The translations under genes and the position numbers were made by a program. The notes beneath the pieces were generated by a model. That model worked only from the letters and a program-made list of their open reading frames with translations, did no database searches and was not told where the DNA came from. From contig JAPOVL010000035.1 in assembly GCA_026708115.1 (NCBI GenBank), positions 146,494-210,493 of the forward strand: a stretch of 64,000 bases of DNA. Direction: 5' to 3'. Positions 5,366 to 49,210 of this stretch are shown here, one piece after another (position 1 is the first letter of the stretch; every line of letters begins with the position of its first letter). This stretch comes from Chloroflexota bacterium (GTDB lineage: Bacteria > Chloroflexota > Anaerolineae > Aggregatilineales > Phototrophicaceae).

Positions 5366-6367
5366 ATGCGTTCACATGTTTTTTGGGATCAATTTGCCGA
5401 TATTACTGTCAATCGCCTGGTCAATCCTGGAAAAGGCGAACCGTTCCTGATTGTCGCCGACCCCAAGAATGATCTCAATTTGGCGGAGGCGCTGCTGTCC
5501 GCAGGTCTCCGCTCCGGCGCCAACACCACATTGATCATCAAAGACTGGTACGAAGAAGGCACCGTCAGCGACCCGGGTCCTATCGTCAACAATGCCGTCT
5601 TGAACAGCAAGTACGTGCTAACGCTCTGTGGCGGCATGGTGCGCGCCCCGGCCATGCAAGAAGCGCGCAGGAACGGCACGCGCCATCTATCCACCGTCGT
5701 TGAGGGCATCGAAGATTATTGCATTGCCGCCCTGCTCAACGTGGATCTGGACAAGATGTTCGAGAACGCTGATATCATCGCCAAACTCTGGGAAGAGACC
5801 GATGAATGTCGCGTCACATCGCCCTACGGAACCGATATCAGCTTCAAGATGGGCGGCCGCCCCAGCTTGGTCAGCGACGGCGCGCTCACCTATGACGGCG
5901 AGGTCGACTTCTACCCCGGCGCCCAGGTTTCCATCGCGCCGCTCGAAGAGAGCATCAACGGCACCATCGTGGTTGATGCCAGCGACAATGTCAGCGGCCT
6001 CGTTCACAACAATTATTCCCTCATCGTCGTCGACGGCGTGATTACCGAGGTTGTCGGCGATGGCGAAGGCGATGCTATGCGGACCTGGCTGGCGACGCGC
6101 AACGACGATGTCATTTACAAGATCTGCCATTTCAGCATCGGCCTGAACCCCCAAGCGGGCATCTCGGGCCACTTGATGGAAGATGAGCGCGTGCTGGCGT
6201 CGGTTGACTTCGGCTTCGGCTATCAAGATCCCAAGTTTGCCGGCACGGTGGGATATAGTCCCTACCACGCGGATATCATGATGGCCAACCCGGACATCTA
6301 CCTGGACGGCAAGCTCATGAGCACCGCCAACAGGCTGGAAGATGGCTACGGCTTCCATCACCTGTAG
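5366..6367 (+). CDS. M29 aminopeptidase-like / 2,5-dihydroxypyridine dioxygenase (NicX)-like protein
   Basis: Fold-level resemblance: 'GANTTLIIKDWYEEG...LTLCGG...', 'ISGHLMEDERVLASVDFGFG', 'YHADIMMANPDIYLDGKLM'. Confidence 0.6.
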   Translation: MRSHVFWDQFADITVNRLVNPGKGEPFLIVADPKNDLNLAEALLSAGLRSGANTTLIIKDWYEEGTVSDPGPIVNNAVLNSKYVLTLCGGMVRAPAMQEARRNGTRHLSTVVEGIEDYCIAALLNVDLDKMFENADIIAKLWEETDECRVTSPYGTDISFKMGGRPSLVSDGALTYDGEVDFYPGAQVSIAPLEESINGTIVVDASDNVSGLVHNNYSLIVVDGVITEVVGDGEGDAMRTWLATRNDDVIYKICHFSIGLNPQAGISGHLMEDERVLASVDFGFGYQDPKFAGTVGYSPYHADIMMANPDIYLDGKLMSTANRLEDGYGFHHL

Positions 6368-16965: not shown

Positions 16966-17071
16966 CCGCTCGGCGCCTAACCGGCGAACGAGTCCCAGGA
17001 ATGCCGCGCTCACACAAAACAAGCAGTGTTCTCGTCGCGTGAGCGACGCGGTTTATCAAAAAAAGAGTACC
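16966..17071 (+). repeat. Dispersed intergenic repeat, copy A
   Basis: CCGCTCGGCG..CCAGGAATGCCGCGCTCACACAAAACAAGC..CTCGTCGCGTGAGCGACGCGGTTTATCAAAAAAAGAGTACC; aligns to copies at 45445, 45592, 49117. Confidence 0.8.
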
Positions 17072-44283: not shown

Positions 44284-45306
44284 ATGGAAAATCTAAGCGT
44301 TCTCTTCACCGGAGCCGATCGCATCGACGTGCAGCAGATAGACGACGACATCGGCCAGCTTCGCGCGCATGACGTGCTCGTCCGCACGGATTATTCACTG
44401 ATCAGCGCAGCTACGGAGCTCGCCTGTTTATCGGGAACGCAAGCCTGGTTTCCTTTTCCGGCGACGCCCGGTTATGCCGCTGTCGGCGAAGTCGTCGATG
44501 TGGGTGACGAGGTAAGCGCTGTCGCGCCGGGAGACAAAGTGCACTACTGGGGCGGGCACAAGCAGTATCATGTGATCGATACGACCCGACCACAGCAGAT
44601 CTGCCTCAAGCTGCCGGAGGGCTTGCCGCTGCGCTTGGCGCCCTTCACGCGCATGGCCATTATCGCTATGACGGCGCTGCGCATCTCGGACATTGAGCTG
44701 GGCGATTACGTTGGCGTTGTCGGGCTGGGCACGGTGGGCAATTTGGCAGCGCAGTTGGCCGGTTTGCAAGGCGGCCGCGTTATCGGGCTGGATCTGAACA
44801 GCGGACGGTTGGAACTGGCGCGCGACTGTGGCATTCCCCACGCGCTGGCGATCAATCCGGAGACGGTCAAGGACGATGTCGGCGAGATTACCAAGGGAGA
44901 AGGCGTGGCGACGCTGATTGAGGCGACGGGTGTACCGGCAGCGCTGCCCGATGCGCTGCCGATTGTGGGGCGCTACGGCGAAGTTATCTTGCTTGGGACG
45001 CCGCGCGGCGTCTTCCAAACCGACCTGACCGGCGTACTGGACTACATTCATCTTCATGGGCACGGCAATGTGACCTTCAAGGGCGCCCATGAGTGGCGCT
45101 ACCCCGTGGCGCGGGATCCTTTCGTCAAGCATTCAATGGAACGCAATTCCGAGATCGCGATGGATCTGATAAGCGCCGGCCGGCTCCAGGTGACGCCCCT
45201 GCACACGCACACGCTGTCGCCTCACGAGGCGGAAAGAGCCTACCGCGGCTTACAGCACGAGAAAGAGAGCTACGTTGGCGTCGTATTTGATTGGACCCTG
45301 CAATAG
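44284..45306 (+). CDS. Medium-chain dehydrogenase/reductase (zinc-type ADH-like)
   Basis: 'PGYAAVGEVVDVGDEVSAVAPGDKVHYWGGHKQY', Rossmann 'GVVGLGTVGNLAAQLAGLQGGRVIGLDLN'. Confidence 0.88.
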   Translation: MENLSVLFTGADRIDVQQIDDDIGQLRAHDVLVRTDYSLISAATELACLSGTQAWFPFPATPGYAAVGEVVDVGDEVSAVAPGDKVHYWGGHKQYHVIDTTRPQQICLKLPEGLPLRLAPFTRMAIIAMTALRISDIELGDYVGVVGLGTVGNLAAQLAGLQGGRVIGLDLNSGRLELARDCGIPHALAINPETVKDDVGEITKGEGVATLIEATGVPAALPDALPIVGRYGEVILLGTPRGVFQTDLTGVLDYIHLHGHGNVTFKGAHEWRYPVARDPFVKHSMERNSEIAMDLISAGRLQVTPLHTHTLSPHEAERAYRGLQHEKESYVGVVFDWTLQ

Positions 45307-45444
45307 AGAGCCCGCCGGAGACCCGGCCGGGACGATGCGCGGCCTCGAACTATTCCCGTCCCTTGACCGCTAATAGGCATTCGCCATTCCCGCTTGCCCC
45401 AAGGGCTTTTGACATGCGGGAACGGGATTCTCATCCGACGGCAG

Positions 45445-45544
45445 CCGCTCGGCGGCAGCGAATCGTCCACAGGAATGTCGCGCTCACACAAAATAACAAG
45501 CCTTCTCGTTGCATGTGCAACGCGGTTTATTAGAAAAGAGTGCC
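45445..45544 (+). repeat. Dispersed intergenic repeat, copy B
   Basis: CCGCTCGGCGGCAGCGAATCGTCCACAGGAATGTCGCGCTCACACAAAATAACAAGCCTTCTCGTTGCATGTGCAACGCGGTTTATTAGAAAAGAGTGCC. Confidence 0.85.
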
Positions 45545-45591
45545 ATCGCTGTCGCAGATTCAGGCGAGCGCGCTGAAAATCAGCAACAAGG

Positions 45592-45685
45592 CCGCTCGGC
45601 GGCGGCGAATATGGGCTACCGTGCTCACACAAATTAATAGACTTGCTCGGCTAGCGCAAATCGCGGTTCATTGAAAAAGGGGATC
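45592..45685 (+). repeat. Dispersed intergenic repeat, copy C (divergent, tandem to copy B)
   Basis: CCGCTCGGCGGCGGCGAATATGGGCTACCGTGCTCACACAAATTAATAGACTTGCTCGGCTAGCGCAAATCGCGGTTCATTGAAAAAGGGGATCA. Confidence 0.75.
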
Positions 45686-45694
45686 ATCAGAATA

Positions 45695-46729
45695 ATGAAA
45701 AACACGAGCATTGTTTTCACCGGATGCGATCAAGTCGAAGTGCAGGAGTTGGAGGAAAACCTGGAAGGGCTTCAAGCGCGTGAGGTACTTGTCAAAACCA
45801 GCTTTTCACTCGTCAGCGCGGGAACAGAGCTGACCTGTTTAGCCGGGATTGAGTCCTGGTTTAGCTTCCCGTCAACGCCGGGCTACACGTCGGTCGGCGA
45901 AGTGGTGAAAGTTGGCGATCAGGTTATCGAGGTTGCGCCGGGGGATGAGGTGTATAGCTGGGGCGGGCACAAGCAGTACAACCGCGTCAACCTGGCAAGG
46001 CCGGGATCGATGTGCATACCTGTGCCCGCTGGGATTACGCTGCCGCTGGTTCCCTTCGCGCGCATGATAACTATTGCGCTGACGGCGCTTCGCGTATCGG
46101 ACATTGAACTGGGTGATGATGTGGCGGTGATTGGCTTGGGGCTGGTCGGCAATTTTGCCGCTCAGTTGGCGCGTTTGCAGGGCGGCAATGTGATCGGGCT
46201 GGATCATAACCCGGGACGCGTCGCGCTTGCCGCGGATTGCGGCGTCAGGAACGCGATTGTGATGGAAAATCCGTCTGCTGCTGGAAAAGTGGCTGAGATA
46301 ACGAATCAGCGGGGTGTAGGGACTCTGATTGAGGCTAGCGGCAGACCCGGGGCGCTTCTCGATGGCCTGCCGCTCGTCGGGCGCTACGGCGAAGTGATCT
46401 TGGTAGGGATTGTGCGTGGGGAATACCAAGCAAATCTCAGCGCTGTGCTCGATTATGTCCATCTGGACACGCGAGGCAATGTGACCTTCAAGGGCGCGCA
46501 TGAGTGGCGCATTCCGGTTGCGAGGGATGCATTTGTGAAGCATTCGATCCAGCGCAACTCAGAAATCGCGCTGGATTTGATCCGCTGCGGCGACTTGGAG
46601 GTTGCGCCTCTGCTTTCACATAGCCTTTCCCCGTATGAAGCTCCAGAAGCCTATCATGGCTTGAAAAACAGAAAAAACGAGTTCATCGGCGTTGTTTTTG
46701 ACTGGACGGCTGTGCCGACGACGGTTTAG
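45695..46729 (+). CDS. Medium-chain dehydrogenase/reductase, tandem paralog of 44284-45306
   Basis: Closely similar along full length ('GNVTFKGAHEWRIPVARDAFVKHSIQRNSEIALDLI'); start moved to ATG 45695. Confidence 0.88.
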   Translation: MKNTSIVFTGCDQVEVQELEENLEGLQAREVLVKTSFSLVSAGTELTCLAGIESWFSFPSTPGYTSVGEVVKVGDQVIEVAPGDEVYSWGGHKQYNRVNLARPGSMCIPVPAGITLPLVPFARMITIALTALRVSDIELGDDVAVIGLGLVGNFAAQLARLQGGNVIGLDHNPGRVALAADCGVRNAIVMENPSAAGKVAEITNQRGVGTLIEASGRPGALLDGLPLVGRYGEVILVGIVRGEYQANLSAVLDYVHLDTRGNVTFKGAHEWRIPVARDAFVKHSIQRNSEIALDLIRCGDLEVAPLLSHSLSPYEAPEAYHGLKNRKNEFIGVVFDWTAVPTTV

Positions 46730-49116: not shown

Positions 49117-49210
49117 CCGCTCGGCGGCAGCGAAAAAGGCCGCCGCGCCCACAGAAAATGACAAGCCCCCTCCTTGCGCCAGCTAGGGGATTATCAAAAA
49201 AGACGGCGAC
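49117..49210 (+). repeat. Dispersed intergenic repeat, copy D (divergent)
   Basis: CCGCTCGGCGGCAGCGAAAAAGGCCGCCGCGCCCACAGAAAATGACAAGCCCCCTCCTTGCGCCAGCTAGGGGATTATCAAAAAAGACGGCGAC. Confidence 0.7.

Follow-up and report, generated by a model that had tools for sequence, protein, structure and literature searches.

Palindrome-associated transposable elements (PATEs), described in Haloquadratum walsbyi, have neither terminal inverted repeats (TIRs) nor target duplications and carry palindromes near their termini (PMC3119063). They are too short to hold a transposase and reach high copy numbers at strain-specific insertions. They use a target site of 4–5 nt, and their palindromes are related to resident IS605-type transposons (PMC3119063). 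The small mobile repeats (SMRs) of Haloquadratum measure approximately 100 bp, leave no target duplication and prefer insertion into other repeats; they possess TIRs, and their mobilizing enzyme is not known (PMC3119063). REP/BIME/REPIN sequences, which are associated with a RAYT (REP-associated tyrosine transposase), consist of palindromes of 20–40 nt. These form bulged hairpins, are intergenic, occur in hundreds of copies and have CT (AG on the other strand) at the presumed cuts (PMC8266576). In Escherichia coli, TnpA_REP cleaves at CT beside the REP hairpins and in one group requires a bulge in the stem (PMC8266576). The BOX, RUP and SPRITE repeats of Streptococcus pneumoniae are small, structured and interspersed, with variable inner modules and positions near genes, and are limited to one species or few relatives; in BOX and RUP, TIRs and target duplications tie the repeats to IS elements of the host (PMC3049150).

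The repeat described here was noticed in the 64,000-nucleotide stretch of Chloroflexota DNA that was analyzed (the window). It belongs to a new family, whose members are small, mobile and non-autonomous and have a PATE-like anatomy. The inserted unit is a gene-free sequence of approximately 88–99 bp, CCGCTCGG...AAAAAAG. As in PATEs, it is too short for a transposase, lacks TIRs, carries hairpins near both termini (the 3′ one covarying), and is present in high copy number at insertions that differ between relatives. Target duplications are likewise not evident; one of 2 bp (AG) is possible at any single site, although the fixed right end of the unit argues against it. Its target differs from that of PATEs, being a bare AG with the first hairpin abutting the end. 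The family is not filed as a PATE because, unlike the known PATEs, it shows no link with a resident transposon of the IS605 type: no proper Y1 TnpA was found in six genomes, although metagenome-assembled genomes (MAGs) may miss one. The element shares with SMRs its size, the lack of an evident target duplication, its preference for other repeats and the absence of a recognized enzyme, but not their TIRs. It resembles REPs in its intergenic location, copy number, bulged hairpin and AG borders, and RAYTs exist in its genus. However, it is a unit of approximately 90 bp with two unlike hairpins and without the GTAG tag, and the RAYT genes of the genus carry a different, GTAG-tagged REP. With BOX, RUP and SPRITE it shares structure, variable modules, proximity to genes and a narrow host range, but it has neither the TIRs nor the target duplications of BOX and RUP.

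It is close to certain that the family to which the window copies belong is mobile. The original prediction of a “MITE/REP-like mobile repeat” is supported as regards REP-like mobility, in view of the empty sites, genus restriction, copy-number differences and identical copies. It does not hold for a MITE in the strict sense, as neither a TIR nor an evident target-site duplication is present. The family is neither a REP of the resident RAYTs, nor a MITE, nor a known RNA.

Copies in the window and across the genus

Re-reading and alignment of the window sequence placed all four related elements where they had been predicted. Empty sites refined their boundaries to 16966–17065 (copy A), 45445–45538 (copy B), 45592–45679 (copy C) and 49117–49202 (copy D), all on the + strand; this uniform orientation applies inside the window and not beyond it. 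The four copies have three blocks in common: CCGCTCGGCG..GCGAA on the 5′ side, CGCGCTCACACAAAA in the middle, and on the 3′ side a hairpin block terminating in an A-tract and G. Copy A is the long-5′-module variant (GCTCGGCGCCTAACCGGCG), with a diverged left flank (AAA in place of CAG) and an A-tract that is 1 nt longer. Copy B is the canonical element, inserted after GGCAG, with its left-flank target dinucleotide AG at 45443–45444 (+). Copy C follows AAGG and belongs to a subfamily with the 3′ hairpin GGCTACCGC...GCGGTT. Copy D is the oldest, its left junction (TTTACCACAG|CCGC) being common to five of the five relatives compared. Its orthologue has decayed in G022 and G008, leaving hairpin 1 alone, and is broken by another insertion in G017. 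This insert of approximately 230 bp (L161, G017:C43, ~5441–5670) starts with GGTAGTGT, ends with ACTACC and has CCAGGAATG repeated at both sides; from its sequence it looks like a classical MITE with a target duplication of 8–9 bp.

The genes around copies B, C and D are common to the relatives, as determined by ortholog comparison. Copies B and C lie between two zinc-binding dehydrogenase genes, an upstream member (ADH_zinc_N; 44284–45306, +) and its downstream paralogue (frame 45671–46729, +). The true start of the latter is likely the ATG at ~45695, just 3′ of copy C, which ends approximately 16 bp upstream of the ATG. The adjacent paralogues (44284–45306 and 45695–46729) have ~67% DNA identity. 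The site orthologous to that of copy B is empty in G022, G017, G021 and G009, while copy C is absent in G022, G021 and G009 and present in G017 as a longer variant. The two copies had been described as a tandem pair. They are indeed adjacent, but constitute two separate insertions rather than one, because the sister species G017 carries C without B.

The source genome, that of an uncultured member of the Anaerolineae, comprises 4.83 Mb in 56 contigs, and the window is C36:146494–210493. A BLAST search of it with copy B as the only query gave a list of 46 matches, of which 41 had E ≤ 7e-18. A genome-wide search with a covariance model, as had been proposed with the original prediction, returned at least 150 matches, all with E < 1e-8; the model (R1) was built from 45 copies, window copies A–D included. 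A complete search of 479 kb gave 39 matches, and the genome-wide total is approximately 400 copies by extrapolation. Within those 479 kb, the E-values were 7e-17 (A), 3e-27 (B), 8.8e-14 (C) and 3.7e-15 (D), these four being among the training sequences. Chance resemblance is untenable given the independent BLAST matches and the number of genome matches, and the alternative outcome, of only four copies with no further covariation, is clearly not what was found.

The element is present in 24 of 34 same-genus genomes. It was found in none of the 27 genomes from other genera near the source genome (61 genomes in all), and in none of 248 further genomes sampled from the class, where strict filters left few candidates scored. 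All genomes compared are draft assemblies, probably all MAGs. Copies per same-genus genome range from zero (G003, G007 and G019 among others) to at least 67 (each of G000, G008, G009, G017, G021 and G022). In G009, six copies with one score and one sequence occupy unrelated sites. Matches to a 36-base exact pattern in a public collection were confined to Anaerolineae/Chloroflexi MAGs. The exact core was not found in the viral contigs searched with a phage reservoir in mind, and among the papers searched none describes a repeat of like kind in sponge-associated or other Anaerolineae.

Folded structure and covariation

The 5′ hairpin of the element has the form GCCGC-TCG-GCGGC. In copy B it occupies 45445–45457 (+) as (G)CCGC-TCG-GCGG(C), and abuts the left insertion point. 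There is also a variant in which an inserted CGTAA breaks the lowest pairs. In the 3′ structure, up to 9 bp (TAATAAGCC/GGTTTATTA) form the outer helix, which is followed by a TTCT bulge opposite one C and by an inner 6-bp helix with a 4-nt loop. In copy B it lies at 45491–45532 (+), with the outer helix AATAACAAGCC/GGTTTATT, the TTCT bulge and the inner CGTTGC-ATGT-GCAACG. The 6-bp hairpin of the original prediction is therefore a real stem that was drawn too small: beyond a 4/1 internal loop it continues into an outer helix of 9 bp, and a separate 5′ hairpin accompanies it.

Covariation was assessed in a MAFFT alignment of 118 distinct copies, in which 85% of cells pair. Cells changed on both sides number 137, compared with 53 (sd 5) after shuffling and at most 54 with the partner slid. 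The covariation score is 0.217, against 0.127 shuffled and at most 0.072 slid. The exchange between T-A and C-G that had been reported from two copies recurs throughout the family, with pair 74–83 being C-G in 64 and T-A in 31 of the 118 copies. Compensatory changes are of the types C-G/T-A, G-C/C-G, A-T/C-G and A-T/G-C, a variety which makes several independent events likely; the cell counts overstate the number of events because the copies are related. By inspection, the outer helix TATCAAA/TTTGATA of the L083 subfamily looks like a further compensatory replacement, although the minimum-energy fold of L083 differs from this structure.

Two known structures were considered and rejected. Integron attC sites were dismissed by inspection, as there are no RYYYAAC/GTTRRRY boxes. 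Domain V of group II introns, suggested by AGCC/GGTT, was set aside since the bulge is on the wrong side and there is no GNRA loop.

Insertion sites and boundaries

At the site of copy B, four relatives read ...GGCGGC-AAATTGCC... (GGCGGT-AAATTGCC in G017) where the window has GACGGCAG[94 bp]AGTGCC. At that of copy C, three relatives read AAGGAATC or a close variant, compared with ACAAGG[element]GGGATC in the window. Two probe searches supplied four further empty sites, all of them clean. At L166, which is a G009 copy, CTGCTTACTGCAG[CCGC..AAAAAAG]AGAGCATAG corresponds to CTGCTTGCGGCAG|AGAGCATAG in five genomes. The remaining pairs are ATGAG[..AAACAG]AGCC with ATGAG|AGCC in 3 genomes (L010), and GACTTGGACAG[..AAAGAG]TGGACAG with GACTTGGGCAG|TGGACAG in five (L022), while L011 is empty in four genomes.

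At every further empty site the unit starts with CCGC after AG and, a fixed distance on, usually ends with AG. The dinucleotide precedes the unit in 109 of 118 different copies (92%); at the fixed right end it is found in 88 of the 118, with GG in 8 more. The left flank follows the pattern NNAG, most commonly ACAG, with GTAG in 5 of 130; beyond (C)AG the sites have little in common. No TIRs were seen in the 118-copy alignment or at the empty-site boundaries. Target-site duplications, a check suggested with the original prediction, are not evident at the empty sites, where nothing longer than AG is duplicated. As AG is present at both ends, a 2-bp AG duplication or core is inseparable at a single site from an element that itself ends in AG; the fixed distance to the right end favors the latter.

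Many copies sit within another repeat, (T)CACCACAG|AGGCRCAGAGRGCACAGAG, or immediately follow the AG with which a neighboring copy ends. At L036 and L018 a second copy begins right after the terminal AAG of the first, which fits targeting of AG. The element frequently lands in the dispersed repeat (T)CACCACAGAGGCRCAGAGRGCACAGAGA (flanks of L165–L174 and several G000:C56 sites), of which uninterrupted copies also exist. A 31-bp sequence with ATTTCAATATTTTGGCAG, seen in the left flanks of L171 and L165, forms dozens of repeats in G008, G022 and other congeners. Copies of the element are mainly intergenic, presumably because other insertions were lost by selection. The distance to a gene is often just tens of bases, and the flanking genes vary. 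On one 395-kb contig (C56), examined for the lagging-strand bias that a PATE would be expected to have, orientation had no clear relation to GC skew, which is weak there, and no consistent pattern relative to genes.

Mobilization of the family and its alternatives

The lack of a gene, of TIRs and of an evident duplication, together with the AG borders, points to a transposase-less element that is moved in trans. The ends, the AG bordering and the absent duplication fit single-strand HUH transposition. The family probably consists of non-autonomous, AG-targeted units of ~88–99 bp that are mobilized in trans, and the likeliest agent is a single-strand system of the HUH/Y1 type; the single-strand mechanism taken by itself is held with moderate confidence. 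In this model, a trans-acting transposase would recognize the folded ends and join them at AG, or CT as read on the opposite strand, in the manner of the IS200/IS605-derived PATEs and the REP/RAYT systems. Insertion would occur directly 3′ of AG, often (A)CAG, and with the unit itself normally AG-terminated, AG would border both junctions. Counting against the model, hairpin 1 abuts the insertion point and leaves no room for a guide of the IS608 type.

No IS200/IS605 TnpA or IS110 enzyme tracks copy number across the genus. The search with Y1_Tnp found no proper Y1 TnpA in G000, G009, G017, G021, G022 or G008. Strong IS200-type matches were confined to G033, a genome without the element, and the remaining matches were weak, being RAYT fragments or a domain in a frame of ~650 aa. 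A protein of ~640 aa (a 642-aa frame in the high-copy genomes) has a C-terminal Y1-transposase-like domain that lacks the HUH motif as read in G000 (L045:1444–3288; G000:C43:158820–159107). Similar frames occur in G008, G021, G022, G017, G010 and G032, and from its sequence the domain is apparently domesticated behind a receiver-like N-terminus. The IS91 search (Y2_Tnp, PF04986) gave no match anywhere, controls included, and therefore carries no information. The full-length parent with a transposase that the original prediction had proposed to look for, with a gene between separated left and right ends, was not found in 1.3 Mb of DNA; lone left ends considered in this role turned out to be copies in decay or members of subfamilies whose 3′ hairpins differ. 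These missing enzymes are weak evidence because draft genomes and MAGs often lack mobile genes.

RAYTs are natural candidates since TnpA_REP cuts at CT and in one group needs a stem bulge (PMC8266576), and the element might be a REP-type sequence that the RAYT of the genus moves, cutting at CT. Judged by sequence, the element boundaries would be compatible with such a cut beside the hairpin. RAYTs (NF047646) were detected in 27 of the 34 same-genus genomes, the source genome included; all matches score below the curated cut-off, and the motifs are intact where read (PNHLHG, WQRNYY). A RAYT gene in G021 has an element ~120 bp upstream, but just one of 30 RAYT loci has a convincing element close by. 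RAYT genes in G000, G021, G022 and G008 are instead flanked by GTAGGGGCGA... REPs in inverted orientation, which are likely the substrate of the resident RAYTs; in G000 (L292) they lie at 5586(+) and 6295(-) around a RAYT gene at 5650–6205. The RAYT is demoted from obvious partner to rival because these GTAG-tagged REPs surround its genes. Moreover, no RAYT was detected in G009, whose copies, six of them identical, are the most clearly recent, whereas the element is missing from G019 despite six RAYT matches there. The tetranucleotide ahead of hairpin 1, at its 5′ foot, is rarely GTAG. Movement by RAYT is, on balance, rather unlikely. As an observation in its own right, inverted GTAGGGGCGAC...GTCGCCC palindromes bracket RAYT genes at L292:5586–6295 (G000:C38:159585–160294), L295, L297 and L299, an apparent Anaerolineae REPtron whose own GTAG-tagged REP is scattered over the genome.

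It is also unlikely, though conceivable, that the family is moved by an undescribed system. Here a trans-acting enzyme other than IS200/IS605 TnpA, RAYT, IS91 or IS110 would recognize the hairpin directly at one end and the bulged hairpin near the other, and insert the strand after a bare AG.

It is improbable that the family belongs, as a non-autonomous element, to a dinucleotide-core recombinase, IS110-like (bridge-RNA) or other, for which AG/CT would be the core that is exchanged. AG stands at both junctions and nothing else is duplicated, as a 2-bp core predicts, and the structured ends are strongly conserved. However, IS110 transposases were not found in G000, G009, G021, G022 or G008, five of the six highest-copy genomes compared; they occur in seven genomes, G017 and six of lower copy number. 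The targets have little in common past (C)AG, and the 1.3 Mb yielded no longer, gene-bearing relative.

A structured regulatory or non-coding RNA, as raised in the original prediction and here taken to be transcribed and duplicated with incidental mobility, is very improbable. The covarying structure and the proximity to genes, with copy C just ahead of a start codon, would suit an RNA, as would a G-U/A-U pair kept in 115 of 118 copies (columns 64:90). That one pair aside, G-U cells in the 3′ hairpin (85) are no commoner than A-C cells (130), and there is no sign that one strand was selected as RNA. No Rfam match was obtained at the gathering score or at E ≤ 1, the 395-kb contig has no gene-orientation pattern, and flanking genes vary. 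Exact insertions at unrelated sites, and copy numbers that differ between species from 0 to at least 67, mark it as a mobile element.

That a DDE transposase moves the family as a classical MITE, duplicating a 2-bp AG target, is very improbable: the element is short, gene-less, high-copy and has AG on both sides, but it has no TIRs, its AG specificity (92%) is unusually strong for a DDE target duplication, and where the left dinucleotide is TG or AA the right one mostly fails to change with it.

Small mobile repeats are little known in uncultured Anaerolineae, and the family adds one whose ends are exactly mapped and for which empty sites and a covariance model are at hand. If unrecognized, the element would mislead the annotation of intergenic and regulatory sequences in these genomes. 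With hundreds of copies, AG-specific and duplication-free insertion, and no visible transposase, it allows a clean test of how orphan repeats, PATEs, SMRs and REPs among them, are mobilized.
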